The notes: generated from the sequence alone by a model not told the origin. DNA of 64,000 nt from Thermococcus sp. (GCF_027052235.1 NZ_JALUFF010000062.1:1-64000), one strand, 5' to 3'. Shown: positions 10,147 to 55,071, counted from the stretch's first letter. Made by a program: numbers and translations.

Positions 10147-11913
10147 ATGGCCCAGAGTGTTGGTGAAATTCCCAGTGGAGAGAAGGAGTTCGCGGAGTCA
10201 ACCCGAAGGATTAGGGACATAGTCCAGTTCCCGGAGATAAGTGAGGAGGAGTTCGAGAGCCTCCTGAAGAAGGCCAGCCGTGCCTACGGTGGACCGCTTC
10301 CCCACAGAACTTACTCCCTCTGTCCGGAAACGAGGAGGGTCGTTCCGGCGCTGGTGTGGGAGAAAGACGGGAAGGTCTGGATAACCAAGAAATGCCCCGA
10401 GGGCATGATAACGGACCTCTACTATGAGAGCGCCGAGCAGTACTACCGCTTCCAGCGCTGGAAGTTCGATTTCAAGCTCAAGAGCACCAACGTTGAGAAC
10501 ACCGGTGTTAACTGTCCCCTCGATTGCGGTCTCTGTGCCAGGCACCGCTCGCACACCAGTTTGCTCAACATAGTACTGACAAACCGCTGCAACCTGAGCT
10601 GCTGGTACTGCTTCTTCTACGCCAAGGAGGGCCAGCCAATTTACGAGCCGACCCTTGAGCAGATAAGGCAGATGCTCCGCAACGCGAAGAAGGAGCACCC
10701 GATAGGCGCAAACGCCGTCCAGTTCACCGGCGGTGAGCCGACGCTGAGGGACGACCTTATAGAGATACTCAAGATGGCCAAGGAAGAAGGCTACGACCAC
10801 GTCCAGCTCAACACCGATGGAATAAAGCTCGCCTTTGACCCGGAGCTGGTTAAGAAGATACGCGAGGCCGGAACGAACACCCTATACCTGAGCTACGACG
10901 GAATGACTCCCCAGACCAACTGGAAGAACCACTGGGAGATACCCCTCATATTCGAGAACGTGAGGAAGGCAGGCGGACCGGGAATAGTCCTCGTCCCGAC
11001 AACCATAAGGAACGTCAACGACCACGAACTCGGTGCAATAATCAACTTCGGCCTCAACCACCTCGACATCGTTAGGGGAGTTAACTTCCAGCCGATTTCC
11101 CTCGTGGGCAGGGTTCCGAAGAAGGAGCGCCAGCGCTTCAGGATAACTATACCCGGGGCAATAAAGCGCATTGAGGAGCAGACCAACGGGACAATAGCAA
11201 TGGACGACTGGTATCCGATACCGATAGCGGGCCACATAGCGAGGTTTTTCGAGGCCTTCACGGGCAAGCACTACTACATGACCAGCCACTACTGCTGCGG
11301 AGCGGCAACCTACGTCTTCCTCGACCGCGAGAAGAAGCGCGTTGTGCCGATAAGCAGGTTCCTCGATGTTGAGGGCTTCGTTGAATACCTTGAGAGCAAG
11401 GCTGAGGAGATCGAGCAGTGGAAGACCATGGGCAAGCTCAGGAAGCTCAAGCTCGGTGCCGAGATATTCATGAAGTTCCGCTCCTTCTACGATGAGAAGT
11501 ACGCTCCAAAGGGTCTCAGCGTCCTCGAACTCATAAAGAACGCCTTCATGCACGGCAACTACGACGCCCTCGGAAAGTTCCACCAGAACGCGCTCTTCCT
11601 AGGGATGATGCACTTCATGGACGAGTACAACTACGACGTTGAGAGGGTTGAGCGCTGTGTAATCCACTACGCCATGCCCGACGGAAGGATAGTCCCGTTC
11701 TGTACCTTCAACGTGATTCCCGAGCTCTACAGGGACAAGGTGCAGGCCCAGTTCAGCTACAGCTGGGAAGAGTGGAAGGCTCTCCATCCGGACTGGGAGT
11801 ACAAGAAGGACAAGTACTTCAGAACAAAGGAGTTCGTTGAGAAGATGAGGAACAGCGATCTCTACAGGAAGACCTACATCGACATAGAGGACTACTTCGG
11901 TCTGGCAAAGTGA
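10147..11913 (+). CDS. tes: Radical SAM tetraether lipid synthase (Tes, GDGT synthase)
   Basis: Joins the phytanyl tails of two archaeol-type lipids to make macrocyclic archaeol and the membrane-spanning tetraether (GDGT) lipids that stabilise the membrane at high temperature. The 588-residue protein has the radical SAM motif CNLSCWYC (about 148-155) and the GGEPT SAM-binding motif. Upstream cysteines CPLDCGLC (about 121-128) and a further set near the C-terminus (CCGAATY, CVIHYAMPDGRIVPFC) bind the extra iron-sulfur clusters known in the Methanocaldococcus homologue. ATG 10147 follows GGTGATGCTTG; a TTG one codon earlier is less likely. It is followed after 10 bases by a small gene in the same operon. 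Confidence 0.93.
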   Translation: MAQSVGEIPSGEKEFAESTRRIRDIVQFPEISEEEFESLLKKASRAYGGPLPHRTYSLCPETRRVVPALVWEKDGKVWITKKCPEGMITDLYYESAEQYYRFQRWKFDFKLKSTNVENTGVNCPLDCGLCARHRSHTSLLNIVLTNRCNLSCWYCFFYAKEGQPIYEPTLEQIRQMLRNAKKEHPIGANAVQFTGGEPTLRDDLIEILKMAKEEGYDHVQLNTDGIKLAFDPELVKKIREAGTNTLYLSYDGMTPQTNWKNHWEIPLIFENVRKAGGPGIVLVPTTIRNVNDHELGAIINFGLNHLDIVRGVNFQPISLVGRVPKKERQRFRITIPGAIKRIEEQTNGTIAMDDWYPIPIAGHIARFFEAFTGKHYYMTSHYCCGAATYVFLDREKKRVVPISRFLDVEGFVEYLESKAEEIEQWKTMGKLRKLKLGAEIFMKFRSFYDEKYAPKGLSVLELIKNAFMHGNYDALGKFHQNALFLGMMHFMDEYNYDVERVERCVIHYAMPDGRIVPFCTFNVIPELYRDKVQAQFSYSWEEWKALHPDWEYKKDKYFRTKEFVEKMRNSDLYRKTYIDIEDYFGLAK

Positions 11914-11923
11914 GGTGATGGAG

Positions 11924-12223
11924 ATGAGCGTTAGGCCGGAAAAGAAGCTCACGAGGCTTGAGCTCAGGTTCGGTAAGGTCAACTTCGAGAGCGCAACAGT
12001 CAAGCAGTACGAGGTTCTCAACGACGTACGCGTCTGGAGGGCATTCATAAACGCTTACACCAAAAAGGGCTTCGTGGTCTTCGACGAGGAGACCCTGCCG
12101 AGGGAAGAACTCCTTGAAAAGCTCGCCGACCTTGAACCGGAGATTATCTCCGAGCGCTACGTCACCGTCGGCGAACTGATTGAGTCCAGCATGAGCTGGA
12201 ACAACATAATTGGAAAGGCCTGA
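11924..12223 (+). CDS. Small conserved protein co-transcribed with tetraether synthase
   Basis: A 99-residue soluble, charged protein (MSVRPEKKLTRLELRFGKV...) with no cysteine and no membrane segment. I do not recognise a family. It starts 10 bases after the tetraether synthase stop with the ribosome binding site GAGGTG overlapping that stop, so it is certainly co-transcribed. Two nearer ATG/GTG codons upstream (11915, 11918) are possible. The link to tetraether synthesis is inferred from the operon only. A short T-rich stretch (about 12225-12237) separates it from the convergent DUF2139-like gene. Confidence 0.75.
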   Translation: MSVRPEKKLTRLELRFGKVNFESATVKQYEVLNDVRVWRAFINAYTKKGFVVFDEETLPREELLEKLADLEPEIISERYVTVGELIESSMSWNNIIGKA

Positions 12224-12235
12224 CCTTTCCTTTTT

Positions 12236-13663
12236 TTACATTAGCTCTACCCTGAACCTTCCGCCTCCCTTTTCCACCTCAAAGGCCACAATCCCGGAAA
12301 ACTGCCTCAGGTCTATCACGTTCCTGCCCTTCTCCAGCTCAAACCTCTCGACCTCAACATCCGGCCGGAAGGAGAGCTCGTATTCGTAAACCCTGAGCCC
12401 GGCCTTTTTCTCCATGTAGAAGATAGCTCTTGCACTCCTATAGCCGTCCAGCGGTATTCCGCCGAAAATTCGGTCAGGTAAGGTTCCGCTGAAAGCTGTC
12501 GCAGGCGGTTTCTCCTCGATGACCTTTTCATCTAGAACCACGATGTCCCTGCTTCCGGTATCGAAGGGCGTCGCCTCCTTGGCCCCCGTATTGGGCGTGC
12601 TGTTGGTGGCTATGAAGAGCTTCCCTCCAACCTTTTCGATGCTCGTCACCCTTGCACCGAGGGCACTTACAATCTTAACCATAGGCGGTGCTATGTAGAG
12701 CAGAACGCTGGGGCCTGAAACCGTGTTGCCCATCAGCCACTCCATGTGCTCACCCTCCCAGGGCAGGTAAAGGGCATCGTGGTGGGCATTATAGGCAGTT
12801 AAAATCCCCCCGCCGAGGTTGATCGCGTTCACCCTGAAGGGGGCGTAGAAGGAGTTGAAGTCGAAGAGCCGGTAAAATCTAAACCCTTCGCCCATCAGAG
12901 GGTTTCCGGCAAAGATTCCACCGCGGACGAATGCAAAGGCGCGGTTGTAGGCTGAGGCCATTGCCCCGAGAACCGGCCTCAGGTAGGGCTTCCCGTCAAC
13001 ACTCCTCCCCGGCTCGAAGACTCCCCACTTCCCCGTTATAAGGTCAAGGACCCTGAACTCCGTAACTCCCCAGTCGAAGTTTTTGCCGACGCCGAAGAAG
13101 ACCGAGTCGTGAACCCTCGTCCCCTTCAGGGCGGGCTTTTCCATTAGCCTCTCGGCTTTCTCTCCCCTTCTGTCAAGGGAGTAAACGCCGAGGTTTGCAT
13201 GCCCGTCCTCCCTCGCGAGTAAAAGCCTATCTCCGTAGGGGTCGTAGATTATCTCGCTAACCTCACCCGCCCACTCGCTTTCGTTGTGGATGGAGTCCTT
13301 CCAGAGGAGCTTTACGCTCCCTTCGTCAGTGTTGTAGGCGTGGACGTGGGAGTACTTGTTCGTGAAGAGTATCCTTCCCTCTTCCCTGTAAAGAGCGGGA
13401 GCGTGAACCCAGCCACCGAAGTAGATGAACTCATCAACGGTCTCGACGGCGTTGTAGGTGTCGCCGCCGCTCGTCGGGGCCTTTCCAACGAGACTAAAAT
13501 CGTAGGTTTTCTCCTCTTCCGAGTTCATGTCGATGAAGTGGGCCTCCCCCTCGAAGGCGAGGGTAAAGTAGAGCGTCCCGTTGTGGTACCTCAGCCCAAA
13601 TATTCCCCCGCTCCCCCACTCCGGGCCGTATCTACCGGGAAAGCGGTAGTTCCTGAGGAGCAT
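12236..13663 (-). CDS. DUF2139-like beta-propeller protein
   Basis: A 475-residue protein without signal peptide or membrane segments, rich in short beta-strand repeats (for example LLLAREDGHANLGVYSLD and KLFIATNSTPNTG). It looks like a WD40/YVTN-type propeller. I recall such archaeal proteins as DUF2139; the assignment is by resemblance only. It ends convergently 12 bases from the tetraether synthase operon. The ATG 13663 has GGTGGTAAC just upstream. The function is unknown. Substrate or ligand binding is a guess from the fold. Confidence 0.6.
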   Translation of the reverse strand: MLLRNYRFPGRYGPEWGSGGIFGLRYHNGTLYFTLAFEGEAHFIDMNSEEEKTYDFSLVGKAPTSGGDTYNAVETVDEFIYFGGWVHAPALYREEGRILFTNKYSHVHAYNTDEGSVKLLWKDSIHNESEWAGEVSEIIYDPYGDRLLLAREDGHANLGVYSLDRRGEKAERLMEKPALKGTRVHDSVFFGVGKNFDWGVTEFRVLDLITGKWGVFEPGRSVDGKPYLRPVLGAMASAYNRAFAFVRGGIFAGNPLMGEGFRFYRLFDFNSFYAPFRVNAINLGGGILTAYNAHHDALYLPWEGEHMEWLMGNTVSGPSVLLYIAPPMVKIVSALGARVTSIEKVGGKLFIATNSTPNTGAKEATPFDTGSRDIVVLDEKVIEEKPPATAFSGTLPDRIFGGIPLDGYRSARAIFYMEKKAGLRVYEYELSFRPDVEVERFELEKGRNVIDLRQFSGIVAFEVEKGGGRFRVELM

Positions 13664-13721
13664 GTTACCACCGCATCCCCTACTCGTGTGCCCTTATTGG
13701 GTTTTCGGGAAGGGGTTTGGC

Positions 13722-14186
13722 TTAGAGGGACTTGTCCTTTTTCTTGGTCTTCTTCATATCCTCAATTCCCTCAAGCAGGCACTCACTGACGCGGAGCCTG
13801 TCGTTGGCATCCAGAAAGAGCGTGAAGTCCCTCTTGGCGAGCCTCTCCTCGACGGGCGCGTGCTCCACGAGGAAGGCTATTATCTCGGCGGTGCTGTAGG
13901 GCACTTTAACCCCGACCTCGTCGGCCCTCTGGAAGAGCCTCTCGGGCACAGTAAAGATGTCCTCTCCACGCCTGACCTCGACTGAGACCTTCGAGTTTAT
14001 CTGCTCCCAGATGAGGAGCGTGTTCCTTGCCTTCTCAATCTTTTCGAGGGCCCTCCGTTCCAGTATGCTGATGTTGGCCCGGCTCGTTCCGAGAAGCTCG
14101 GCTATCTCACTCTGCTTAAGCCCCCTCGCCCTCAGTTTGAGTATCTTAATCTGCTGTTCCGTGAGGAAGCTCTTCACTTTAAACAC
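13722..14186 (-). CDS. Tfx-family DNA-binding protein
   Basis: A 154-residue protein with a basic N-terminal helix-turn-helix (LTEQQIKILKLRARGLKQSEIAELLGTSRANISILE, in parts about 8-42) characteristic of the archaeal Tfx family, followed by a C-terminal domain. The Methanothermobacter Tfx activates the molybdenum formylmethanofuran dehydrogenase promoter; Thermococcales lack that pathway, so the target here differs. The start is GTG 14186, close to the start site predicted from a minus-strand TTTTAATAAC near 14203-14213. It is divergent from the tubulin-like operon and shares its 188-bp intergenic region, which makes that operon a plausible target. Confidence 0.8.
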   Translation of the reverse strand: MFKVKSFLTEQQIKILKLRARGLKQSEIAELLGTSRANISILERRALEKIEKARNTLLIWEQINSKVSVEVRRGEDIFTVPERLFQRADEVGVKVPYSTAEIIAFLVEHAPVEERLAKRDFTLFLDANDRLRVSECLLEGIEDMKKTKKKDKSL

Positions 14187-14299
14187 CTGAGTTTAACAAA
14201 GCGGTAGTTATTAAAAGTTTTATGGGTGCGGTGACTATTCTTGGATGTTATAACCTGGGAACCAATCGATAAGTACTGCCTAAATACTGGTTCAATAAC

Positions 14300-14374: not shown

Positions 14375-15463
14375 ATGAAAAGAAGACTGGTTGCAATTGT
14401 GGTCTTTTTTGTGGCCCTTGGACTTCTTTTAAGCCCCGTCAGTGCCCTTACAACCTCGACAAACCCAGAGCTCCCAAGCCAGATTGAGGAGAAGAAGGTT
14501 GTTGACTTTACCCTAGTTATCACGGACATACACGGGACAAAGCTCACCATAATTACAGACCTCAAGCAGGACGGTGCAACTCCAATCTTCGACACCAGCA
14601 ACCTCGGGAACTTCGACGTTAAACTCCAGGGAAACAAGATTGAGATAAGCCCCAAGAGTGGTTCTTTTCCCTCGGTCGTTGAGGTTCACATACACGGCGT
14701 CGTGCCTGAGGGCATAACAACCAAGGTTGTCCAGACCCCAACCAACCAGAGATTATCTCTCAAGTTCTTTGACCTCGGGGAGCACATCTACTACCGCGTA
14801 ACCGACGGCTATGACAGCGAGTCCAAGAACTTCGTCATAATCCACCCCCAGCTTGAGAAGGTCAACTCCATTATAGAGAACAACGTCACCGACCCCAAGG
14901 CTAAGGCGATAGCCAAGGAATACATAGACCTCGGCCTGATTGACTTCGTTGAGAACGACCTCCTCCCTCTCTTCGTCAAGTACGACCCCCAGACAATTGA
15001 AAACCTCCAGAACAAGATAAGCGAGCTCCAGGCGTTGGTTGAACAGCTCAACAGCACCCTCAAGGAGAAGGACAAGAAGATAAGCAACCTCCAGGAACAG
15101 GTAAAGAGCCTGAGCGATGAGAACGGCAAGCTGAAGAGCGAGAACGAGAACCTCAACCAGAGGGTTTCCGACCTGGAGAAGAAGGTCAAAGACCTCCAAG
15201 CACAGCTTGAAGAGGCCAACAGGCTCAAGGCCAGCGCCCAGAAGTCAGCCAAGAACTACCTTATTGCAACGGTAGTTCTCGTGATTCTCGTTGGAGTGGT
15301 TGGTTTTGCCGGTTACCGCTCAGGAAAGTCCACCGGTGTCAGGGAAGCAAAGAGCAAGTGGTACAAGAAGGGTTACGACGAGGGCTACCGCAGGGGAGAG
15401 GAGCATGGCTACGAGCGGTGTATGAGAGAGCGCTCGCGCTCATTGATTGATGAAGGAGAATGA
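14375..15463 (+). CDS. Membrane-anchored coiled-coil envelope protein
   Basis: First gene of the tubulin/GTPase operon; 362 residues, no family recognised. A signal peptide (about 1-25, ending VSALT) is followed by a beta-rich extracellular domain (about 26-170) and a long coiled coil (about 205-290, heptads such as NLQNKISELQALVEQLN). One membrane helix (about 293-313, IATVVLVILVGVVGFAG) leads to a short cytoplasmic tail with repeated aromatic-glycine pairs (KGYDEGY, HGYERC). The layout suggests a stalk that projects outside and a tail able to contact a cytoplasmic partner, for which the tubulin-like protein 11 bases downstream is the obvious candidate. That contact is inferred. Confidence 0.8.
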   Translation: MKRRLVAIVVFFVALGLLLSPVSALTTSTNPELPSQIEEKKVVDFTLVITDIHGTKLTIITDLKQDGATPIFDTSNLGNFDVKLQGNKIEISPKSGSFPSVVEVHIHGVVPEGITTKVVQTPTNQRLSLKFFDLGEHIYYRVTDGYDSESKNFVIIHPQLEKVNSIIENNVTDPKAKAIAKEYIDLGLIDFVENDLLPLFVKYDPQTIENLQNKISELQALVEQLNSTLKEKDKKISNLQEQVKSLSDENGKLKSENENLNQRVSDLEKKVKDLQAQLEEANRLKASAQKSAKNYLIATVVLVILVGVVGFAGYRSGKSTGVREAKSKWYKKGYDEGYRRGEEHGYERCMRERSRSLIDEGE

Positions 15464-15474
15464 GGTGATTTGGG

Positions 15475-18400
15475 ATGGTCGAGCTTCGGGTCTTCCCCGA
15501 TGTTATTATGGGAATTGGTGGCGCTGGCAAAAACTTGGTCTTCCAGATGCTCCGCACTGAGTGGCTCGTCAGGGCCCTGCTGGAGAACTCGGAGAAGAAG
15601 TACACCTTCATAATCCTCGACACAGCCGTCGGGGAGATGAAGGACGACCTCGCCCACAAGGAGGAGATAGACGCCTTCATTGAAAAAATCGCCGAGGAGA
15701 TGAACAAGCCGAAAAACATAGACGTTGAGGTCAGGAACATCATTCAGGACCTCCACATCGACACCCCGAGGGTGCTCTACACCAAGAACCTCATAGACGA
15801 GCTCCACAGGAAGAAACTCGTTAAGGTCTGGTGGATACTCGACAAGAAGCACGGAGTTGACAACACAGAGGCCCTCCAGAAGTACGGAAGCTCGGGCTTC
15901 TCGAAGGGAACCATCAGGAGAAGGGGCGTTACCAAGGCAATGTTCTACAAGGCCCTCGTCGAGGGCAGGGTGGACGAGATATTCAGCATAAAGCCCGGCG
16001 CCCAGGAGATTGCAATGGTCGTCGGACTCGGCGGTGGCACCGGTTCGGGAATATTCATAGACCTTGCCCAGAGGATAAGGGACTCCAATCCGGGTGTTAC
16101 TATAACTCTCTTCGGAATCCTCCCGTCCCTTGAGGAGGGCGAGGAGAAGGCAAACGCCTACATAGCCCTTTCGGAGCTTGAGTATCTGAGACTCACCCAG
16201 GGGAAGTTCGGGGAAGTCCTCTTCAATCACGTGGTGCTCTCAACAATTCAGCCGACCCGCTTTAGGGGCTCGGACGATGCGTACGCCAAGAACATTGCCC
16301 TTCAGGAGTTCTCCGAGGCCTTCGTTTACACCTTCGTGAACTTCTACGACGCCAAGAGCGGAAACCAATCCGATGAAATCGAGCCGAACCACTACGGAAG
16401 GTTCACCCTCATGACCTCTGGCATTGTCAGGTACGAGGTCGAGAGCACGGTCTCCAACAAGAAAGACCTTGATGAGGCCGTTACAGCCTTCACAAAGGCC
16501 CTGAAGGTCGAGGAGGACATAAGGGAGAAGGACATAGAGGGAATAATAGGTCTCCTGAAGGAGGCGGAGATGATAGAGCCGAGCGGTGGAGATGGAAGCT
16601 TCTACAGCAGGTATCTCGACTATATAAAGAACACCCGCCTCATTCAGGAATTCTATGGTTTCCTGACGAACCCAGTTTTGATGGCCTTCAACTACAACTC
16701 TCCCAAGGCAGTTATGGACGAGATAAACACCCGCATTCTGATGGGCGACCAGAAATTCTCGGACGTCGTCAACGGACTTAAGACCCCCGAGGAGATACTG
16801 GACTTCATAAACCAGCTCAAGACAGCCATAGAGAGCGCCAAGACGGACTTCAGGGATGACGTTGACAAGAAGATATACGAGACCTTTGTGAAGATACTCG
16901 ATAACATCCACCTTTCGATAGAACAGCTGGCGGTTCTCCACAGGTTCAGGTTCCCGGAGAACCTTAAGAAGAGCTATGAACCCTACGAGACCGAAATAGG
17001 AACAGCCCTCCGTGACCTTGCGACCTTCGAGGCGAAGCCCGTTGTCCTCAACAGGATAGACGACCTGAGGAGGGCCGTTGGCAACGACATAGCATCAAGG
17101 GAACGTAGGCTTAGCGAAATCGAGGAGGAGCTCAAAGCCCTCGAAAAGGAGAAGGCCAAGATAGAGAACGACGTCGAGGAGATAATAGAAATCAACACAA
17201 AGCTCCTCAGGAACTACTATCGCTTCATCAAGGACCTTCCCGAGATAGAGGGCCTGATCAGGGAAGCTTCAAGGAAAATACAGCGCGTCCTCGATGACCT
17301 TAAGACCCACGCCCTCGGGGACATCGACAAGAACCTTGAGCCGGAGATGTTAGCCCGCCAAGTTTCGGAGGATATGGAGTCTGCCCTTGAGGGTCTGAAG
17401 AACCTCGTTACAAAGCTTGAGGCCATCTTCCCGGGCAACCCGGAGGTTCTCACCCTGAAAGACCTTATCGATTACATAGACCTCATCAAGGAGACTCTGC
17501 TCAACTACTACGGATACAGGTATTACGAATGGAGACAGGAGAACAGGTCGCTTGGGGAGAGGCTCAGGGGTAAGGATTACAGCGTCGAGATGGAGGACTA
17601 CCTCGACAGATACGAGAAGGCCTACAGCAGGGTCTCCCGCAGAAAGGAGCTCTCCAGCTTCATAAGGATAAGGCCCGGTGCCGAGCCGAACACGATTTCC
17701 AACGTTGAGATAAACAGGCTCGATGAGAGCATCTGGATTATCATCAAAAAGCTTAGGGATTCAATACAGGACAGCATAACCGCCAAGATTGGAAAGCGCC
17801 TCAACGTTGACCTCAAGGATATTCAGCTAGACAAGGTGGCCAGTGAGAGTAAATCGCAGCAGGAGTTCATAAGCAAGGCGAAGAACGCCATATACGAGGC
17901 CATTCTGGCAAAGACCGGAGTTGGTTCCAAGCTCAATGAGCTCATTGAGGAGAAAAAGAAGCTTGAGGCTGAGATTGAAGAGCTCTCGAAGTTCCAGGGA
18001 CTTCTTGGTACCCTAAGGGAGAGGATAGTTGACGTTAGGTCGAGGCTCCAGAAGGAGTGGAAGGAGTACAAGAACAGGTACGACGAGACCATGAAGAAGC
18101 TCAAGAAATACCTGGAAAAGACCAGCTCAAGGAGAAACGAGAAGGGGACGTTCATCTACAAGGTTCAGCCCTCCCCGGAGGCCCTTGGCCTGCTGATGGA
18201 TGCCTCGGAGGGCAGTCTGGCGAAGATACTCCAGAATCCAAGCCTGAACACAATCTCCCAGAACGAGTTCAACAAGATACTCAACACCTTCCGCGAGCTC
18301 CTCCAGACCCTCATAATTCCGGAGTACTCAGGTGTTGACAAGTACAGGCGCATAGTGGAAGGCGAGGACGGTATCCCAATCGAATGGAAGCTCAAGAGCG

Positions 18401-18855
18401 TTCTCAGCTACATAAACTCGCCGGTGAACGAGAACACGGGTGAGGTCACGGAGAAGCTCAGGGAGGTCGTCATGGAAACCCTGGAGCGCACGGTCAAGCC
18501 CAGAAAGGTAGTTCCGACCGGCATGCCCGCGAGGGGCTCTCCATGGGACATCGCCATAACCATAATCTTCCCGAAGGTCTTCCTTGAGGACATCTACGGC
18601 CTCTACCAGAAGAACAACAGCTATTACGACGAGTACTACTCCCTCAATCAGTCAGGCAAGAAGAGGGAAATCTTCCACCACGTTTACAAACTTGAGGATG
18701 GCTGGTACATCGCGAGGGAACCGATGGACTTTGACGAGGCGATCATCCTTGCCTCAGACGAGCAGTACAACAACAGGGACGTCAGCGAGGAGATTCTCAA
18801 TAAGTACTACATAAAACACAACGTGGCCAACAAGGGGCCGGAGGGGAGTGAATGA
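15475..18855 (+). CDS. Giant tubulin-like GTPase domain protein (Tubulin_2 type)
   Basis: A 1126-residue cytoplasmic protein. The N-terminal region has a nucleotide-binding GIGGAGKN near residue 13 and the tubulin/FtsZ signature GGGTGSG at about 186-192 (preceded by VVGLG), so it belongs to the tubulin superfamily and resembles Pfam Tubulin_2. From about residue 480 the chain turns into long helices and coiled coil (for example RRLSEIEEELKALEKEK, ELIEEKKKLEAEIEELSK), ending in a mixed region (about 980-1126). This is more than twice the size of FtsZ, CetZ or tubulin. It lies between an envelope coiled-coil gene and a membrane GTPase gene, and its stop overlaps the next ATG (ATGA). Filament formation is inferred from the fold. 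It has no signal peptide or membrane helix. Confidence 0.85.
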   Translation: MVELRVFPDVIMGIGGAGKNLVFQMLRTEWLVRALLENSEKKYTFIILDTAVGEMKDDLAHKEEIDAFIEKIAEEMNKPKNIDVEVRNIIQDLHIDTPRVLYTKNLIDELHRKKLVKVWWILDKKHGVDNTEALQKYGSSGFSKGTIRRRGVTKAMFYKALVEGRVDEIFSIKPGAQEIAMVVGLGGGTGSGIFIDLAQRIRDSNPGVTITLFGILPSLEEGEEKANAYIALSELEYLRLTQGKFGEVLFNHVVLSTIQPTRFRGSDDAYAKNIALQEFSEAFVYTFVNFYDAKSGNQSDEIEPNHYGRFTLMTSGIVRYEVESTVSNKKDLDEAVTAFTKALKVEEDIREKDIEGIIGLLKEAEMIEPSGGDGSFYSRYLDYIKNTRLIQEFYGFLTNPVLMAFNYNSPKAVMDEINTRILMGDQKFSDVVNGLKTPEEILDFINQLKTAIESAKTDFRDDVDKKIYETFVKILDNIHLSIEQLAVLHRFRFPENLKKSYEPYETEIGTALRDLATFEAKPVVLNRIDDLRRAVGNDIASRERRLSEIEEELKALEKEKAKIENDVEEIIEINTKLLRNYYRFIKDLPEIEGLIREASRKIQRVLDDLKTHALGDIDKNLEPEMLARQVSEDMESALEGLKNLVTKLEAIFPGNPEVLTLKDLIDYIDLIKETLLNYYGYRYYEWRQENRSLGERLRGKDYSVEMEDYLDRYEKAYSRVSRRKELSSFIRIRPGAEPNTISNVEINRLDESIWIIIKKLRDSIQDSITAKIGKRLNVDLKDIQLDKVASESKSQQEFISKAKNAIYEAILAKTGVGSKLNELIEEKKKLEAEIEELSKFQGLLGTLRERIVDVRSRLQKEWKEYKNRYDETMKKLKKYLEKTSSRRNEKGTFIYKVQPSPEALGLLMDASEGSLAKILQNPSLNTISQNEFNKILNTFRELLQTLIIPEYSGVDKYRRIVEGEDGIPIEWKLKSVLSYINSPVNENTGEVTEKLREVVMETLERTVKPRKVVPTGMPARGSPWDIAITIIFPKVFLEDIYGLYQKNNSYYDEYYSLNQSGKKREIFHHVYKLEDGWYIAREPMDFDEAIILASDEQYNNRDVSEEILNKYYIKHNVANKGPEGSE

Positions 18856-20633
18856 GGCTCCCGAGGTCCCTTGAGTCCTTTGGCCTACTGCCCTTTCTCT
18901 TTTACACCCTTCTCGGTTTTGTGTTCTATTTGCTCATAAAATACACCGCCACCTCAACGAACCTGTTGAACGACCTCAACGTCATAACCGGGAGCTGGCT
19001 CTTCCTCTCACTTGCCGGCCTCAGCTTCGGCATAGTCACTGTAACCGCGTTGACAAGGTTCACGCCCTACTCAAGAAAGACGTGGGGGCTTCTCATTGGG
19101 GGTCTCGTCCCACTGATTGATGCCCACTGGGGGGAGGTTCCCCTTCTCGCACCTCTGGTGCTGGGCCTCCTCCTCGGCCTAGCGTTCATAACCCGACAGG
19201 AAAGACAGCTCAAGTGGGCCAAGGCCTTCGCCCCGCTCCCTCTCTTCGTGCTTCTTATCCCGCCGACCTCAGAGGCCGTCCTTGAGTTTCAAAAGGGGAC
19301 GTATACCCAGCACTTTGGAAAGATTCTTGGCTACCTTGGCATAATCATCCTCGTTCTGGTTGAGGCATACTTCATTCATGCGACGGCCAGGCACGCCCTC
19401 CGGGACGAGGACACCTCCGAGGAGGTCACGATATTCCTCGGTCCGAGGCAAAGCGGAAAGACGATACTCTCCCTCGGGTTTTACTACACCCTGGTCACCA
19501 AGAGGAAGGGAACCCACGAGGACTCCTTCGTGATAAGCGAGGAGGGGACCCCACTTGACCTCGCCGAGCTGTACAGCATCTTCAGGCGCATGGGCTTTCA
19601 AGGGGTTAAGGGCACCCAGAAGGGCTGGCTCACGATACACACCTTCAGAATAAAGAGGGGTGGAGGTAAGAAGTTCCTTCATGGCCTAAAGGACGTGGAG
19701 CTTGAGATAACGGACTACGCCGGTGAGATTCTGTGGGATCTTGAGGAGATAGTCAGAGACACCAAGAAGTACGACGACCTCGTAAAGGCTGTGGAACAGG
19801 ACATAGAGGCCGACATGGAGCGGTTTAAGGAGGCGATAAGATACAGGAAGAACGTTCCCGATGAGAAGAAGGACGCCATAGCCGAGGAGATAAAGAGAAA
19901 GATAATCCACGACTTGGAAAGGATGCGCTTCGACTTCAGGAACTACAGGAGGGAAATCTACTGGGAAAAGGTTCCCGAAAGCATTAGGGACAAGCTGGCC
20001 GTTGCCCACACCCTCAGCAGTCTGATGAGGGCCGATAAGGTAGTTCCACTCCTGGACGGAGAGGGAATACTCTACGAGCTCTATCAGCGCGACAGGGAAG
20101 CTAGGGAGGCCCTCAACGACATGAAGAACTACAACCCAACCCTCTACGAGGTCATAATGAACGCAATCAGAAAGTTCGAAAGAGCAAACCAGGCCCTTGA
20201 GTCATCCCTCCAAGCGAGGAGGGCCACACTTGAGGCCCAGCTCAGGGCCTACGATGCCATCCTTTCAAGGTTCAAGAAACGCAACAGGCGCGGTGACTTT
20301 GCCTTCCTGGTCACAAAGGCCGACCTCATAGGGGCAATCTTCATGCCATTCCTCCTGAACATCAGCCTCTCGGGAGTTAAGAAGAGGATAATAAACCTCC
20401 TCAAGAGCACCACTGCCTTCCTAAACCTCCTTCAGAAACTCGTCCCCGAAAAGGAACTGAAGAAGAGGATAATACTGTCCATAATCCTCTCGCCAGCAGA
20501 CCTCAAGCACCTCGATCCCGAGTCGGCAGAAGACCTCAGGGAGGAAGTCCTGGTCAGGGGACTCGATGAGCTCGTTGAGTGGCTGAGGACAACGCCCATT
20601 ATCAGGGTTCTGAAGGAGGTGCTGCTCCCGTGA
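18852..20633 (+). CDS. Membrane-anchored P-loop GTPase-like protein
   Basis: A 593-residue protein with about five or six N-terminal membrane helices (residues 10-180) and a cytoplasmic nucleotide-binding domain. Visible motifs are a Walker A GPRQSGKT (about 197-204), a switch-like DYAGE (about 288-292, position of GTPase DxxG) and TKAD (about 487-490, position of the guanine-specificity NKxD). A long helical insert (about 300-470) separates the last two. The set points to a TRAFAC/double-GTPase-like fold rather than an ATPase, but this is by eye. The ATG overlaps the stop of the tubulin-like gene, and its TGA overlaps the GTG of the next gene, so the three are translationally coupled. Confidence 0.75.
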   Translation: MRLPRSLESFGLLPFLFYTLLGFVFYLLIKYTATSTNLLNDLNVITGSWLFLSLAGLSFGIVTVTALTRFTPYSRKTWGLLIGGLVPLIDAHWGEVPLLAPLVLGLLLGLAFITRQERQLKWAKAFAPLPLFVLLIPPTSEAVLEFQKGTYTQHFGKILGYLGIIILVLVEAYFIHATARHALRDEDTSEEVTIFLGPRQSGKTILSLGFYYTLVTKRKGTHEDSFVISEEGTPLDLAELYSIFRRMGFQGVKGTQKGWLTIHTFRIKRGGGKKFLHGLKDVELEITDYAGEILWDLEEIVRDTKKYDDLVKAVEQDIEADMERFKEAIRYRKNVPDEKKDAIAEEIKRKIIHDLERMRFDFRNYRREIYWEKVPESIRDKLAVAHTLSSLMRADKVVPLLDGEGILYELYQRDREAREALNDMKNYNPTLYEVIMNAIRKFERANQALESSLQARRATLEAQLRAYDAILSRFKKRNRRGDFAFLVTKADLIGAIFMPFLLNISLSGVKKRIINLLKSTTAFLNLLQKLVPEKELKKRIILSIILSPADLKHLDPESAEDLREEVLVRGLDELVEWLRTTPIIRVLKEVLLP

Positions 20634-21325
20634 TAGGGCTTGGAATCTACACCACCGAGGGCGTTCCCCTCTACCTCCATGGAAACCAGCCACTGGCATC
20701 TTCCCTCGTCCCCTTCATCGACAAGTACGGTCTCTGGGTCGCTTACTTTCCGGCAATTGAGAGGGGGGAGCTTCTCTGCTACATCGGGGCCAGGTTTGAC
20801 AACGTGAAGGAGAGCCCAATAGGTCGATTGAACAGGGAGGTACTGCTCCTAAGCTTCTCCGGCCAAGAGAAAGGAGATTTCGAAACTGCACTGAGGGTCT
20901 TCATGCCCGAGAACCTTCAAAAGATATTCAGGGAGGCTGGCCTCTACTTCGAGCAGGAACCCGTCGGGGAGCCGAATGTTTCCCAGGATTCTATAGTGAG
21001 GGTCTATAGGGAGGTAAGGAGCTATCTCAGGGAGCTCTCTTCGGAAGTGCCTTCCTCGATATCCAAAATCCCCTACAGAAAAGTCACAGTTCCGGGTATT
21101 ACGGATACTCCCTATCCATCACTTTACCAGCGTTACCTCTTCTTGGGGACGGTATTGGAGGCAATTAAGGGGCTCTCAACGAAGTCCTGCATTCCACACT
21201 TTATAGAAAACGCCCTTCGTAGCGATTATTCCCGAGGGGGGGACTTTGGATACCCCTTTGTGGTTTACTCAAAGGGGACCGTGCCCTCTCTCGGTGGCCT
21301 GTGGTTCCCAACCGGAGGGATGTAA
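20630..21325 (+). CDS. Soluble operon protein, paralogous to the N-terminus of the next gene
   Basis: A 231-residue protein without signal or membrane segment; family not recognised. I start it at GTG 20630 because that codon overlaps the preceding stop (GTGA) and has GGAGGTG upstream. Residues before it belong to the previous gene. Its opening IGLGIYTTEGVPLY and its ending VYSKGTVPSLGGLWF match the pattern of the next protein (VAIYDTQGILV and VFSKGSSAKYPGLWM). Both therefore seem to carry the same roughly 200-residue domain, possibly a longin/roadblock-like regulator of the neighbouring GTPase. The fold guess is inference. Confidence 0.7.
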   Translation: MIGLGIYTTEGVPLYLHGNQPLASSLVPFIDKYGLWVAYFPAIERGELLCYIGARFDNVKESPIGRLNREVLLLSFSGQEKGDFETALRVFMPENLQKIFREAGLYFEQEPVGEPNVSQDSIVRVYREVRSYLRELSSEVPSSISKIPYRKVTVPGITDTPYPSLYQRYLFLGTVLEAIKGLSTKSCIPHFIENALRSDYSRGGDFGYPFVVYSKGTVPSLGGLWFPTGGM

Positions 21326-23344
21326 ATGGGTGAGATTCCCGTTGCCATATACGATACCCAGGGCATACTCGTCTCGGGGGGAGGAGTGAACTTTGAGGAA
21401 CTAGGGATAAGCTACGGTGATATGGACTCCCTTGGCGTCTGGCTTGCCCTGAGAAGGGGTGAAGATTTCGTCGTTGGGATGCGCATCGACCATCTTTACG
21501 AGAACAGGGGGCTTGGACGGGATAACCGTTATCTAGTCCTCATTAAGTTCCCCGCGGAGAAGTTCCCCTCCTTCGTCGAGAGGTTCCAGGATCTAATGAA
21601 AAAACTCATAGCGGACTTCGAGGAAAGCAACAACGTCGCCTATAAGGGCGAATTCGGCGAAAAGCCCTATTTGAATCCTGCTGTTGCAGAGAAGATAGCA
21701 ACGCTCGTTGAAAAGCTCCCGAAATACGATGAGGAGACCCTCAGAAAGTACGGGCTCGCGAAGGACAGGCTCAGGGTTCGGGTTGAGGGTCTGAACTACG
21801 ATGACCCGAGTATTGGAGACCGCGCAGCGGCTCTGGAGCTGATTCAGAGGATACTTTACACTGCCCCGGAGAGCCCGATAACCGAACTCCTTGTTTTCTC
21901 CAAGGGGAGCTCGGCCAAGTATCCCGGCCTGTGGATGGAGAAGGATGCCAAGCCCCCAGAGGAGATTCTCTCTGCCCTTGAAGGCGAGTTTGAAAGGCTT
22001 AAAGAGCTCTATGAAGAGTGCGACAGGGAGCGTCTCAGATACCAAAGAGACCTCGAAAAATGCAGGGATGACCTTGAGAGCTCGAAGGCCGAGGCTAGAC
22101 GGTACAGGAGACTCTACGAGAGTAGCTCCAAGGGAATAGCGCGTCCAATAGTGGCGGGAATCTCAATAATCCTCCTCCTCGCGGGGCTCTTTGCGGGTGC
22201 CTACCTCCACTCCTCAGGGGTGATGCCCCTTCTCCCGAAACCGGCCAAGGTTATTCCTCCAGCGGACAATGGATATCTCAAGGCGAACTCCGGTCTTAAG
22301 GGCGAACCGGCGAAGGTCATTGGTGGCTACATAAAGTTCATCAAGGAAGCGAAGAACGGACGGGTTGACCTGGCGTATCTCTCTTCCCTAGTGGTCAACG
22401 ACAGCAAACTTCACCGTGAGTGCCTGGCAAATCAGAGCAAGCTTAAGGATGAAACCAAAAAGCTCACCGCCCGGGTCAATACTCTGGAGAATGAACTGAA
22501 GAAGGCGAACAGCACAATCTTAGCCTTAAGGGAAGAGAAGAATAAGCTGAAGTCCCAACTCGATGGGTTCAGCAAGGACACAAAGTGCTTCTCGACCCTA
22601 GTTGGCCCTAACGTGACCCTCACAGAGGACGACCTCCAGACACTCAGTAAAGAACCCGGAATCGGTGGCTGGGAGAAAGTAATGACCGGCCACTGCAGAG
22701 CCAAGCTCAACGAGATGCGTGAAAACCTTCACAGCGAGTCAGTCCACTTCCAGAACGTATTAAATGACTCCCTCAATGACCTCAGACAGGCCCAGAAAGT
22801 CTCTATGAAAATACTGCTCAACCCCATCAGCGAGCCGGTAAAGGGCTACATGATAAACTTTACCAGGGCAATTAACGCCAGCATTGAGGAGACCATGCTC
22901 ATTGAAAGGATAACCCAAAATCACACCGAGAAGCTCAAGAGTTTCAACGTCTCCTCCGTCAAATCCTGTTCGGGGGCCTGTAAGGTAATGGGAGAATGGA
23001 CGGCGGAGCAGGGAAGAATAAAACGTGCCCTTGAGAAGAACTTCACAAAAATCCCGGCGGTCGTCGTTATGGAAGACCTCCAAGAGCTTTACAACACCAA
23101 CAAGACCATCAGCGACCCCGGGAAGCTCAATACCCTCAACGTCTCGGCGTACACCAAGGGGCTTTTGGGCTACGTCCTAAACCTCCCTGCGAACGTGGCC
23201 CTAACCCCCAAGGACTTCTGGAGGGAAGTTGGCAACCTGACCGGTGACCTCAGCGGAGTAGGGAAGCCCGAGGATGTCCGTCTCTATCTGGAAAGGCTCC
23301 TGAAACTCCTTGAGTTCATAGACAGCAAGGTGGAGGCGAGCTGA
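21326..23344 (+). CDS. Bitopic protein linking a cytoplasmic domain to an extracellular coiled coil
   Basis: A 672-residue protein of unknown family. The N-terminal domain (about 1-215) is related to the preceding protein. A short coiled coil follows (about 215-265), then one membrane helix (about 272-292, PIVAGISIILLLAGLFAGAYL). A large outer part (about 300-672) contains another coiled coil (VNTLENELKKANSTILALREEKNKLK in parts) and many N-glycosylation sequons (NDS, NST, NVT, NHT, NKT). There is no cleavable signal; the topology is inferred as inside N-terminus and outside C-terminus. It begins one base after the previous stop, and the next gene begins one base after its own stop. It may couple the cytoplasmic machinery to the surface. 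Confidence 0.78.
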   Translation: MGEIPVAIYDTQGILVSGGGVNFEELGISYGDMDSLGVWLALRRGEDFVVGMRIDHLYENRGLGRDNRYLVLIKFPAEKFPSFVERFQDLMKKLIADFEESNNVAYKGEFGEKPYLNPAVAEKIATLVEKLPKYDEETLRKYGLAKDRLRVRVEGLNYDDPSIGDRAAALELIQRILYTAPESPITELLVFSKGSSAKYPGLWMEKDAKPPEEILSALEGEFERLKELYEECDRERLRYQRDLEKCRDDLESSKAEARRYRRLYESSSKGIARPIVAGISIILLLAGLFAGAYLHSSGVMPLLPKPAKVIPPADNGYLKANSGLKGEPAKVIGGYIKFIKEAKNGRVDLAYLSSLVVNDSKLHRECLANQSKLKDETKKLTARVNTLENELKKANSTILALREEKNKLKSQLDGFSKDTKCFSTLVGPNVTLTEDDLQTLSKEPGIGGWEKVMTGHCRAKLNEMRENLHSESVHFQNVLNDSLNDLRQAQKVSMKILLNPISEPVKGYMINFTRAINASIEETMLIERITQNHTEKLKSFNVSSVKSCSGACKVMGEWTAEQGRIKRALEKNFTKIPAVVVMEDLQELYNTNKTISDPGKLNTLNVSAYTKGLLGYVLNLPANVALTPKDFWREVGNLTGDLSGVGKPEDVRLYLERLLKLLEFIDSKVEAS

Positions 23345-25435
23345 ATGAGGAAGGTATGGGCCCTGCTCATTATCGCCTTCCTCGGGTTTGAACTGTGGGC
23401 AGGGATTAGCGTTCCCTGGGTTTCGGCCAGTAGCCTGCGCTCCGCGACCCTGAACCTCGTTGTCGGCGAGACCTACGAGTACAACTACTTCAACCTGACC
23501 CTCGTTGATATGAACCCGGTGAGCGGAACGGTGCTCGTCAACGTCTCGGGGATTCAGGGGAGCGAGCTGGTCACCGCTGAGGACGCCTTCACTGACGTCT
23601 TTGGCGACGGGACGATACAGATAAGGGCCGTTGCGGTCTATGTGAGCAACAAGCAGGCAACCGTTGAGGTTCGGGTTGACGTCGAAGCCCTGGCCAACGT
23701 CGCCTGTTCGCTACTTGAGTCCCTCATCTCGGAGGCAGAAGCCAACGGCACCCTGCCGGAGTCGGTGTTAAACCAGTCGAGACAGAGCCTGACGCTGGCA
23801 CAGCAGTACAGGGATTCCGGCTGGTACGACGATGCAATCCAGACCGCATGGAGGGCCCTTGACAACCTCAGGAGCACGATAAAGATAGCTACAGAGGCCA
23901 GGAAGGCCATAATAGACGCCAAAAAGGCCGTAACCGACCCCTCCACCTGCGTCTCAGGATGCAAGGAGTGTCCCCTTTCCATAACGGTGAAGGTGAAGAA
24001 GCTCATAAGCGAGGCCGAGGATTACTACCAGCAGGGGAACTTTGAGGATGCCCTCCAGACGGCCAACAGTGCAATCAACATGATAAAGGACTGCTGTAAC
24101 TCGTGTAAGGTCTTTCCCGAGAGGAAAAAAGAACTGGAGGATTACCTGGCCGAGAAGGAGAAGACAATACCCTCGGAGCTCTTCAAAGCTGTAAGGGACA
24201 AAATAGACACCGCCCAAAAGTACTACGACAACGGTGACTGCGTTGACGCCATAAGTTACCTCGACGATGCCAAGGAAGTTGCGGAGACTATAGTCGAGAA
24301 GTGGGATGAGACTATGACCTGCAGGGCAAGCCTCCTCTCAAACATAACCCGGGCAGGGAAGAGGTATTACACGATTTTCAACAGCACCGTGATAAGGATA
24401 AAGGTTGACGACCTTGAGAAGAGCGCCAGAGAAGACCTCTACAAGCTCATAACCTCGGGCTACTTCCAGACTGCACTCTCGAAGTGCAGCAAACTCGCGG
24501 ACGACCTGAAAGCTAGGGAGGAAAAGTTCAACGAGACCAAAGCCGTTCTCGGCGATGTTTGGGAGCATATAACGGGGGTTAAGGCCGAGGGCTACGTCGT
24601 GAACCCGGCCGTCTCCATTTTCGTTGAGGGGCTCAATCTCATGGAGCAGGGCAACTACGAGGGGGCCAAGGCAAAGTTCCTTGAGGCCAATCAGACCGCC
24701 AACGAAATCGTGCTCAAGGCCATTGAGGCGAAGAAGGCCAAGAACGAAACGCTCAGTTGCCTGACCAAGCTGAAGGCCGAGGGTATAGACACCCAGAGCG
24801 TCTTCGGAGAGGACATGTCCCGTGCTGAGGAACTCTATAAGAAAGGAGACTACGAGGGGGCAAAACTCCAGTGGGAGAGCATCAAGGAGAAGTGCAACGA
24901 CCCAGAACTGGAGACCGTGATAGAGACGAGGAACGAAGCCCATTCCCTCTACGACAAGACCAGAGCCGAGGGGATAAAGATACCCGGAGATGTGGACAAC
25001 CTAATAGAGCAGGCGGACAGGAGCTTCCGGGACGGGGACTTCACCCTTGCCAAGGAGGAATACAACGGGGTAATCAAGAAGCTTAATGAGCTAAAGGACA
25101 TTGAAGAGGATTATCAGAAAACCTCCGAACAAGCCGAGAAGTTCTATGAACAGAGCTCAAAGTGGGGCAAAACCATTGCCAAGTGGTTTGGAATTCCCGT
25201 GGTCGAGGAAAGGTTTGAGAAAATCAAGGAACTCCGTGAGAAAATCCAGAAAGACCAGGAGAGCGGAAATTACACGGCCCTGAAGAAAGACCTGGCGGAG
25301 TTAAAGGGCTTGATGAATGACATAGACGGAGACAACTCCAAGAACTGGGACGACCCGCTTCCCTACGTTCCGAACTACTACTTGATAGGCCTCCTGTTTT
25401 CAATCCTGATGATGTTCTTCAACCTCGTCAGGTGA
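23345..25435 (+). CDS. Secreted TPR-like repeat protein with C-terminal membrane anchor
   Basis: Last gene of the operon; 696 residues. A signal peptide (about 1-29, ending VSASS) is followed by a beta domain and then a long helical region with repeated TPR-like units (for example AEDYYQQGNFEDALQTANSA, AQKYYDNGDCVDAISYLDDA). Cysteine pairs (CVSGCKEC, CCNSCK) could form disulfides outside the cell. A C-terminal membrane helix (YYLIGLLFSILMMFFNLV) ends the protein, so it is anchored with the repeats outside. The family is not recognised. A T-rich stretch (about 25436-25452) right after the stop probably ends the operon's transcript. Confidence 0.78.
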   Translation: MRKVWALLIIAFLGFELWAGISVPWVSASSLRSATLNLVVGETYEYNYFNLTLVDMNPVSGTVLVNVSGIQGSELVTAEDAFTDVFGDGTIQIRAVAVYVSNKQATVEVRVDVEALANVACSLLESLISEAEANGTLPESVLNQSRQSLTLAQQYRDSGWYDDAIQTAWRALDNLRSTIKIATEARKAIIDAKKAVTDPSTCVSGCKECPLSITVKVKKLISEAEDYYQQGNFEDALQTANSAINMIKDCCNSCKVFPERKKELEDYLAEKEKTIPSELFKAVRDKIDTAQKYYDNGDCVDAISYLDDAKEVAETIVEKWDETMTCRASLLSNITRAGKRYYTIFNSTVIRIKVDDLEKSAREDLYKLITSGYFQTALSKCSKLADDLKAREEKFNETKAVLGDVWEHITGVKAEGYVVNPAVSIFVEGLNLMEQGNYEGAKAKFLEANQTANEIVLKAIEAKKAKNETLSCLTKLKAEGIDTQSVFGEDMSRAEELYKKGDYEGAKLQWESIKEKCNDPELETVIETRNEAHSLYDKTRAEGIKIPGDVDNLIEQADRSFRDGDFTLAKEEYNGVIKKLNELKDIEEDYQKTSEQAEKFYEQSSKWGKTIAKWFGIPVVEERFEKIKELREKIQKDQESGNYTALKKDLAELKGLMNDIDGDNSKNWDDPLPYVPNYYLIGLLFSILMMFFNLVR

Positions 25436-25619: not shown

Positions 25620-25697
25620 TGGGGCCGGGGCCGGGATTTGAACCCGGGCTAGGGGATCCACAGTCCCCTGTGCTGACCAGGCTACACCACCCCGGCC
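25620..25697 (-). tRNA. tRNA-His (anticodon GTG)
   Basis: On the minus strand the acceptor stem is GCCGGGG/CCCCGGC with an encoded extra G at position -1 (25697) opposite discriminator C73 and CCA at the 3' end. These are the identity features of tRNA-His. The anticodon stem GGGGA/TCCCC carries the loop CTGTGGA, giving GTG. The T arm is CCGGG/CCCGG around TTCAAAT. Its promoter TATA lies at about 25725-25732. Confidence 0.95.
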
Positions 25698-27720: not shown

Positions 27721-27860
27721 CCCCGCCCTAAAGGACGGGGTTTCCGTCGGGGAAACCCCTCGCTAATGGCGGGGAGGTTTGAGGGGTAATCCTCACCACT
27801 CCCATTGAAGGGGGTTCGGAGAACCCCTCTGGCCGGGCCTCCGGCCAGTTACCCCCACCT
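27721..27860 (-). ncRNA. Probable TnpB omega-RNA / right-end hairpins
   Basis: The end of tnpB carries tandem hairpins typical of an IS605-family right end: CCCCGCCC-TAAA-GGACGGGG (27721-27740; one G-U pair in the minus-strand RNA) and TTTCC-GTCGG-GGAAA (27741-27755). In TnpB systems the 3' end of the gene overlaps a guide scaffold whose target-matching guide lies just beyond the right end, here below 27721. The inner boundary near 27860 is approximate. Confidence 0.5.
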
Positions 27861-29068
27861 GCCGACAAACCCGGCAGGCTCAGGGTTATCTTTTCCACAA
27901 CCTTCCTCAAAATGTTGAAAGCACCAACCACGTCGGCATTCATAACAACGCCCTCTCTACGGCACTTAAACAAACCCCTAAAGATTCTCCCATCAGCGTG
28001 GCGTTGGCCGCAGAGAGGGCAAAACTGAGAAGTGAAAGCCTCATTCACGACTTCAACCTCGATACCATACTCTTCAGAGACTTCCTTTAAGCGTTTAATG
28101 ACAGTATTGAACCGCCAGACGTGAGAGAGGAGGAAATTCTGCTTTTTACCCCTGTCAGAGTTTCTGGCGATTCCTTTCGGGTAACCAACGAGGATCCTCG
28201 AAACTCCGAGATGGTAAAGCTTTTCGACAGTCTGCCTTACTGCCGTGTTGATGTAGTGTTTGGCTTGGAGCTTGGCTTTTTCGTGCATTCTTTTGAGTTT
28301 CCTGCTTGTTTTGACTCCACTCCTGTTGAGTTTTGACTGATAATCCGCAATTCGTTTTTGCCAGTAAAAATCAATGCTCTTTAAGGGTCTCCCATTGACT
28401 AAGAAACTCTCGCCGTTCTCAACGTAAACGGCCATTAAATTGTTCACTCCTAAATCAATTCCAGCTGAAAGGTTTCCTTTTGGTGTTCTTGGGAGTTTAA
28501 CCCACTCGCCCTTCTCCATCTTCTCCTCAACTTTGGAGAAGCTGATGCAAACATACCACTTGCGTTTAACATCATCGTAGATTATCTCTAACCGCCCTTG
28601 CTTGCCCTTGAGGTAGATCCGCCCCTTGAATTGAATCCTCAATCTCCCAAACTTTCCAAGTCTTCGCAGTTCGATAACATTCCCGTCAATCTTGTATTGG
28701 TCATTTCGGAGTGGGATAATGAACAGTTTCTTTCCGTTCTCCTCCCTGACAAAGCCGGGCGGTTTTGGCCTGAACCATTCTGGAAGTTCTCCATTCTTTT
28801 TCTTCCTGTTGAGGGCGAAGAATGAACGCCAGCTTTCGGCGTTCTTTCTCGCCAACTGCTGGACTGTTGAACCACCAATCCAGTTTTTGAACTCGTGGTA
28901 AGCTTCCTTTTCTGTTCCGTTAAAATCAATCCTGCCGAATTCTTTGAATTGTCTCAAGCGTTGGTAATTGAGTTTGTTCCAGATTACTGCGGTGGCTTGG
29001 GCTAACTCGGAGAGTGCTTTTTCCTGCTCCTTGCTCGGCTGGAGTTTGATGGTTACTGAGCGCTTCAT
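27728..29068 (-). CDS. tnpB: TnpB (IS200/IS605-type RNA-guided nuclease)
   Basis: A 446-residue TnpB/OrfB protein, a reprogrammable omega-RNA-guided DNA endonuclease in the family. The RuvC-like triad is visible as GIDLGVNN (Asp), VNEAFTSQFCPLCG (Glu) and MNADVVGAFNI (Asp). The zinc-finger region keeps CPLC but the second pair is altered: the order is FKCRREGVVMNAD, so one cysteine of the usual CxxC appears to be missing. No tnpA transposase accompanies it, as in IS1341-like elements. The long C-terminus (from about 395) runs into the structured right end. GGTGATG-like signals are weak before ATG 29068. Confidence 0.93.
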   Translation of the reverse strand: MKRSVTIKLQPSKEQEKALSELAQATAVIWNKLNYQRLRQFKEFGRIDFNGTEKEAYHEFKNWIGGSTVQQLARKNAESWRSFFALNRKKKNGELPEWFRPKPPGFVREENGKKLFIIPLRNDQYKIDGNVIELRRLGKFGRLRIQFKGRIYLKGKQGRLEIIYDDVKRKWYVCISFSKVEEKMEKGEWVKLPRTPKGNLSAGIDLGVNNLMAVYVENGESFLVNGRPLKSIDFYWQKRIADYQSKLNRSGVKTSRKLKRMHEKAKLQAKHYINTAVRQTVEKLYHLGVSRILVGYPKGIARNSDRGKKQNFLLSHVWRFNTVIKRLKEVSEEYGIEVEVVNEAFTSQFCPLCGQRHADGRIFRGLFKCRREGVVMNADVVGAFNILRKVVEKITLSLPGLSAGGGNWPEARPEGFSEPPSMGVVRITPQTSPPLARGFPDGNPVL

Positions 29069-55066: not shown

Positions 55067-55071
55067 GTACA

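Follow-up and report, generated by a model that had tools for sequence, protein, structure and literature searches.

FtsZ, CetZ and TubZ are proteins of 350-450 aa with an identifiable T7 loop and a tubulin-type C-terminal domain, and we know of none that is encoded in an operon with a membrane GTPase. The FtsZ-like-1 (FtsZl1) proteins, found across bacteria and archaea, are one of the branches of the tubulin/FtsZ superfamily that have diverged most. In 2010, Makarova and Koonin published the family together with its architecture and its archaeal linkage to a membrane GTPase (PMC2875224); they described an FtsZ-like head, a coiled coil and a mostly helical C-terminal domain, included a Pyrococcus abyssi member in their alignment and could not align the structural elements past H5. 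Membrane remodelling was proposed for the family in that work, and a reviewer remarked that this was hard to decide from gene context (PMC2875224). Later, the proteins with the Pfam domain Tubulin_2 were treated as a separate and scattered branch (PMC9871819). No experimental work on any member of the family was found in the literature. In addition, systems combining a DO-GTPase and GAP1 with a tubulin-coiled-coil protein were listed for bacterial phyla and predicted to act in biological conflicts (Kaur et al., 2020; PMC7159879).

In this study, we report the analysis of a six-gene operon (genes A-F) in a window of 64,000 nucleotides, the whole stretch examined, from Thermococcus sp. (GCF_027052235.1, NZ_JALUFF010000062.1:1-64000). 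Gene B, the second of the operon, was found exactly where it had been predicted from the sequence alone. Its features, in window coordinates, are the following.

15475-18855, plus strand: gene B, FtsZl1/Tubulin_2 protein of 1126 aa with an ATG start, Pfam matches, orthologues in three genomes (G069, G016 and G049) and plasmid homologues
15475-16449, plus strand: tubulin/FtsZ-like GTPase head, aa 1-325, from Pfam, profile comparison with solved structures and a CetZ/FtsZ/tubulin fold match
15511-15534, plus strand: T1 loop GIGGAGKN, aa 13-20, with GGAG invariant in the homologue alignment
15907-15924, plus strand: probable T3-loop equivalent GTIRRR, aa 145-150, from profile alignment with the RepX T3 loop, G145 and R150 being invariant
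16024-16050, plus strand: T4 signature GLGGGTGSG, aa 184-192, within the Pfam match and conserved in relatives
16372-16374, plus strand: D300, candidate acid of a degenerate T7 (NxSD...YGxF), invariant in four Thermococcaceae heads
16450-18144, plus strand: helical arm, aa 326-890, with long helices at 522-613 and 816-881 in a weak model; the least conserved part
18145-18852, plus strand: conserved C-terminal domain, aa 891-1126 (PWDIA..., FHHVYKLEDGWYI), seen in seven archaeal homologues

Judged on its sequence, gene B is a member of the FtsZl1/Tubulin_2 family. It matched Pfam Tubulin_2 (PF13809; E = 6.9e-13, 49 bits against a cut-off of 27, and 42.2 bits in the genome scan) and Pfam Tubulin (PF00091; 1.4e-8, 35.7 bits, cut-off 33), in both cases over residues ~176-245, and its relatives carry the NCBI label "tubulin-like". 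When gene B alone was compared with solved structures, only weak similarity to BtubB and AtubA was obtained (E ~0.01-0.02); a profile built from eight archaeal heads matched solved FtsZ (best E 2.4e-5), RepX/TubZ, CetZ and an Asgard tubulin. The tubulin-like match of the head is thus not due to chance, and the head that the original prediction had recognized is upheld by the Pfam matches, the head profile and the fold match described below. The family plan is likewise present, with an FtsZ-like head, a GGGTG(S/T)G loop, a long coiled coil and a C-terminal domain (PMC2875224), the helices at 522-613 and 816-881 being followed by the domain at 891-1126 in a total of 1126 aa. The tubulin-like head extended by a long helical part is therefore real, as predicted, although the surprise attached to it is not warranted, given that this architecture has defined FtsZl1/Tubulin_2 since 2010 (PMC2875224).

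The profile of gene B was significantly similar to Thermococcus FtsZ1 and CetZ only at residues ~177-237 (E 1e-7). No significant FtsZ or CetZ profile alignment was obtained past T4-S5, and neither T7 nor a tubulin C-terminal domain could be identified there, which agrees with the 2010 description of nothing alignable beyond H5 (PMC2875224). As these two elements are not identifiable, filament formation is not assured. A comparison of the nucleotide pocket with those of TubZ, CetZ and Tubulin_2 had been suggested along with the original prediction. T1 and T4 were found to be present and are conserved among relatives with 31-65% identity, and the segment GTIRRRxVTKA (residues 145-155) aligned with the T3 loop of RepX in the profile alignment. 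A T5 segment, LPxxxEG...NA, was located at 216-228, and T1, T4 and T5 are kept in the relatives with small departures in single members. Equivalents of H7 and T6 may be guessed at in EFxEAF...Y and TIxPT, respectively, and T7 appears to be replaced by a short loop, GNxSD...YGxF. The candidate acid D300 of this loop is not strictly aligned in the methanogen and haloarchaeal homologues.

The head (residues 1-329) was modelled from a two-sequence alignment with low confidence (pLDDT 53, pTM 0.59). In a Foldseek search of this model FtsZ and tubulin chains came first, and in a second structural alignment the best match was CetZ (Z 13.0 over 188 residues, 3.4 A). It must be considered that generic Rossmann enzymes reached up to Z 11.4 in the same alignment; therefore, the assignment of a tubulin fold needs sequence and structure jointly. 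Gene B has in common with CetZ, FtsZ and TubZ the GTPase fold and the T1-T5 loops, CetZ being the best structural match to its head, but it differs from CetZ in its length of 1126 aa, as opposed to about 350-400 aa, and in its other C-terminal part. Structure prediction, also suggested at the outset, gave a low-confidence head model that fits the CetZ/FtsZ/tubulin fold and a poor full-length model (pLDDT 47), likewise obtained from two sequences.

In this full-length model, helices extended from ~329 to ~881, the longest being 522-573, 575-613 and 816-881 (pLDDT mostly 75-85), with a heptad-like signal at 524-588, and residues ~891-1126 formed a separate domain of mixed helix and strand, at low confidence. 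The original prediction of about 650 residues of coiled coil was overstated, the region at ~330-890 being helical with two long helices, and it missed the conserved domain at ~891-1126. Identities to G069/G049 were 64.5/49.4% in the head, 48.2/24.2% at 326-520, 36.8/16.8% at 521-615, 42.5/21.1% at 616-790, 35.0/28.3% at 791-890, 46.0/27.3% at 891-1015 and 57.3/49.5% at 1016-1126. The last ~110 residues are thus far more conserved than the arm, and the motif PWDIAxT...GVFLENIYG...FHHxYKLEDGWYIxR is recognizable even in the methanogen and haloarchaeal homologues. Given this conservation of head and C-terminus and the divergence between them, gene B consists of two conserved ends linked by a fast-evolving helical arm, and the conserved C-terminal domain speaks for reading the helical part as an arm between two functional ends. 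The profile of this domain gave no similarity to the C-terminal domain of FtsZ/CetZ (probability 0.3), and its best match among solved structures, a neuronal calcium sensor (E 0.036), was judged to be due to chance. Weak coiled-coil matches to ZorA, JetC, SMC and LmuB were rejected as background of this kind of sequence.

The six genes are co-directional and almost gapless, with start/stop overlaps or zero gaps. The other genes of the operon and its neighboring tRNA are the following.

14375-15463, plus strand: gene A, with a signal peptide, an ectodomain, a coiled coil at 206-299, a transmembrane segment at 295-313 and a basic C-terminal tail
18852-20633, plus strand: gene C, multi-span membrane P-loop GTPase with G1 GPRQSGKT, G3 DYAGE and G4 TKAD
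19440-19463, plus strand: Walker A/G1 motif GPRQSGKT of gene C
19713-19727, plus strand: G3 motif DYAGE of gene C
20313-20324, plus strand: G4 motif TKAD of gene C
20630-21325, plus strand: gene D, cytosolic, with homology to the N-terminal part of E
21326-23344, plus strand: gene E, with a D-like cytosolic domain, a transmembrane segment at 275-293 and a sequon-rich ectodomain
23345-25435, plus strand: gene F, with a signal peptide, FIMAH/TPR-like helical repeats and a C-terminal transmembrane segment
25620-25696, minus strand: tRNA-His, 3' end toward the operon; conserved synteny begins exactly here

The start of gene C overlaps the stop of gene B (ATGA), and gene D likely starts at a GTG at 20630, which overlaps the stop of gene C (GTGA). 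Gene C is the adjacent multi-span P-loop GTPase expected from the FtsZl1 linkage, with GPRQSGKT and TKAD (TxKD in the family), and its GTPase motifs constitute an invariant core in seven archaeal loci. The operon resembles the published FtsZl1 arrangement also in the membrane GTPase partner found in archaea and in the co-occurrence with canonical FtsZ (PMC2875224). It departs from it in that vWA, OmpA and kinase genes are missing from A-F, in that the partners A, D, E and F are Thermococcales-specific, and in that the C-terminal domain of gene B looks mixed helix/strand, and not purely helical, in its low-confidence model. No VWA match was obtained in genes A and C-F, a domain that is frequent in the family without defining it, and no known remodelling protein of the ESCRT, vWA or OmpA type was found in the operon.

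From sequence comparison, gene E is a membrane-anchored paralogue of gene D. Its N-X-S/T sequons number 13 outside, against 3.6 expected, and none in the cytosolic part; this asymmetry repeats in G069 and G049 and is weaker in G016. Given the signal peptides, the positions of the transmembrane segments and the sequon asymmetry, the operon products most likely form a system across the membrane. Its inner side would comprise B and D together with the GTPase domain of C and E's D-like part, and A, E and F would contribute their ectodomains to the outer side. For D and E, a longin/roadblock-like fold was guessed from the order of strands and helices, but it found no backing in the profile search. 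Upstream, a TFX-family regulator (13722-14186), followed by DUF2139, is transcribed divergently from the operon; in the relatives read, the operon adjoins neither of them.

With respect to distribution, PF13809 was found in 4 genomes of the 115 of the class (that of the window, G069, G016 and G049) and was absent from 111. Three other PF00091 genes are present in the genome of the window, as in all 12 sampled congeners. Given this scattered presence beside three canonical PF00091 proteins in every sampled congener, the operon is an accessory system and not division machinery. The order A-F is the same in the four Thermococcaceae genomes, at different chromosomal positions (in G016, a MAG, the operon lies on two contigs); in G049, D and E have diverged too far to be matched directly to those of the window, but they occupy the corresponding places, with related starts and layout. 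Identity between the window and G016 was 41-63% for A, B and C and 23-33% for D, E and F, as compared with 79% for the flanking Taw3-like protein. In both, the operon ends beside the 3' end of tRNA-His, and the synteny with operon-free relatives starts exactly there. The G016 operon lies between the gene of a 318-aa protein, which we read as EVE-like, and tRNA-His, and the same site is empty in G012 (L029). The G069 operon occupies a different locus, where 60 bp separate its end from the 3' end of a tRNA-Ala. The surroundings of the G049 operon contained no tRNA, and a search for an attachment site in the form of a directly repeated tRNA-His 3' end gave nothing convincing. From the tRNA-linked loci and the empty site (window 25620-25696; L029; L014/L015; L013:2426-2564), the operon looks like a tRNA-linked island without an integrase of its own.

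Outside the class, gene B homologues were found on plasmids of Methanohalobium, Haloplanus, Halorubrum and a Natrialbaceae archaeon. The multi-span GTPase lies directly downstream of the tubulin gene in three of these four plasmids and, altogether, in 7 of the 8 archaeal loci read, including the Methanohalobium, Halorubrum and Natrialbaceae plasmids. The third haloarchaeal gene has no detectable homology to D/E and shows the same layout (cytosolic domain, transmembrane segment, ectodomain). The tubulin-like gene of the Natrialbaceae plasmid (L038:10926-14299) is divided between two frames, at 10926-12209 and 12767-14299, which may reflect a broken gene or a sequencing error.

The explanation that we favor, and to which we give an even chance of being right, is that gene B is the cytosolic FtsZl1 core of a six-gene, GTP-controlled, membrane-anchored trans-envelope system acting on the envelope. 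Its head would bind GTP and, on the cytosolic side of the membrane, associate end to end with itself; the arm and the C-terminal domain would connect this assembly to the membrane GTPase C and to the cytosolic domains of D and E. Gene C would switch the assembly on and off, and A, E and F would relay the state of the assembly outward, to the S-layer. A local remodelling of the envelope, such as a vesicle, a protrusion or an anchoring patch, would be the output, in line with the role put forward for the family in 2010 (PMC2875224). Vesicle formation by Thermococcus is still unsettled (PMC10927574). The role of stalk, spacer or tether that had been predicted for the extension of gene B would fit an operon with a membrane GTPase and anchored ectodomain proteins, and tying filaments to partners fits the proposed mechanism better than a motor stalk does.

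Alternatively, the operon might be a defence or interbacterial conflict system, the archaeal counterpart of DO-GTPase/GAP1-N2, in which the tubulin-coiled-coil protein would be a multimerizing effector switched by the GTPase after a signal from outside; we consider this unlikely, although it deserves to be kept in view. GTPase systems with a tubulin bearing a C-terminal coiled coil and with vWA and HSP70 partners have been described (Kaur et al., 2020; PMC7159879), and the operon shares with DO-GTPase/GAP1-N2 a GTPase with the G3 glutamate, a tubulin-coiled-coil protein and surface proteins (PMC7159879). The G3 of gene C reads DYAGE or DYPGE, with the D and the GE invariant in seven homologues, and the operon is an accessory, fast-evolving, tRNA-adjacent island. 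Hsp70 and vWA genes lie near the tubulin-like gene of the Halorubrum plasmid p117 (L037:14-3101), a gene set that recalls, by analogy, the bacterial GTPase-tubulin-HSP70 conflict systems. However, the DO-GTPase2 profile remained below its cut-off of 27 in two gene C homologues (14.6 and 13.0 bits) and gave no match at E<1 to gene C of the window. Additionally, neither an FNIII protein nor an effector enzyme was found in the operon, a profile search for GAP1 matched none of the genes A, D, E and F, and PADLOC returned no meaningful match. Given that gene C stays under the DO-GTPase cut-off and that GAP1 was not found, the operon was filed as FtsZl1 and the conflict reading was retained as its rival.

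It is rather improbable that gene B works as an SMC-like machine instead of a filament, its long helices folding back to place the C-terminal domain on the head and GTP-dependent pairing of heads moving the arm. Both ends of the protein are well conserved relative to the arm (35-48/17-28% against G069/G049), and in the weak model a helical middle lies between two long helical segments of comparable length (522-613 and 795-881). Nevertheless, the full-length model is too poor for its weak Foldseek matches (Rad50, condensin and MukB) to be given any weight, and the C-terminal domain has no profile similarity to that of FtsZ/CetZ. We hold it to be equally improbable that gene B is an SMC/Rad50-like tubulin GTPase driven by a second, membrane GTPase, its two conserved ends being joined through the folding back of the helical arm, with a GTP-driven movement across the envelope that would replace filaments or be additional to them.

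A filament for partition of a plasmid or element, as in TubZ, is very improbable: homologues are carried by archaeal plasmids, the site is tRNA-adjacent and RepX and TubZ are among the profile matches, but within the operon, which encodes membrane and surface proteins, there is neither a TubR-like partner nor an integrase gene, and no relatives of gene B were found in phage records or IMG/VR contigs (two scans of genome contigs gave nothing and one MAG contig). Least probable of all is a division or cell-shape tubulin like FtsZ or CetZ, which the common GTPase fold and CetZ as the nearest solved fold would suggest, yet which does not agree with the absence from 111 of 115 genomes and the three other PF00091 proteins of every sampled congener.

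Gene B thus exists at the stated position and lends itself well to experiments, within a family that was already known. Given that the Thermococcales operon is compact and its order is kept in four genomes, it is a practical system for the questions raised by FtsZl1, and it could settle whether polymerization occurs without a recognizable T7 and C-terminal domain, what the arm is for and whether the family acts on membranes.

Other genes of the window must also be noted. A TnpB/OrfB-like gene (27728-29068) adjoins LplA and tRNA genes, and a similar ORF is present in L029 (14602-15909). At 25 kb downstream there is a CetZ-like gene (43968-45122), preceded by the gene of a 735-aa secreted-looking protein (41754-43961). 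Finally, the region 45782-55830 is a low-GC (44-47%) run of genes that encode very long surface proteins and products whose starts resemble class III signal peptides (GQISLEFLL, GQISMDLL), and it looks like a pilus-type or surface cluster.
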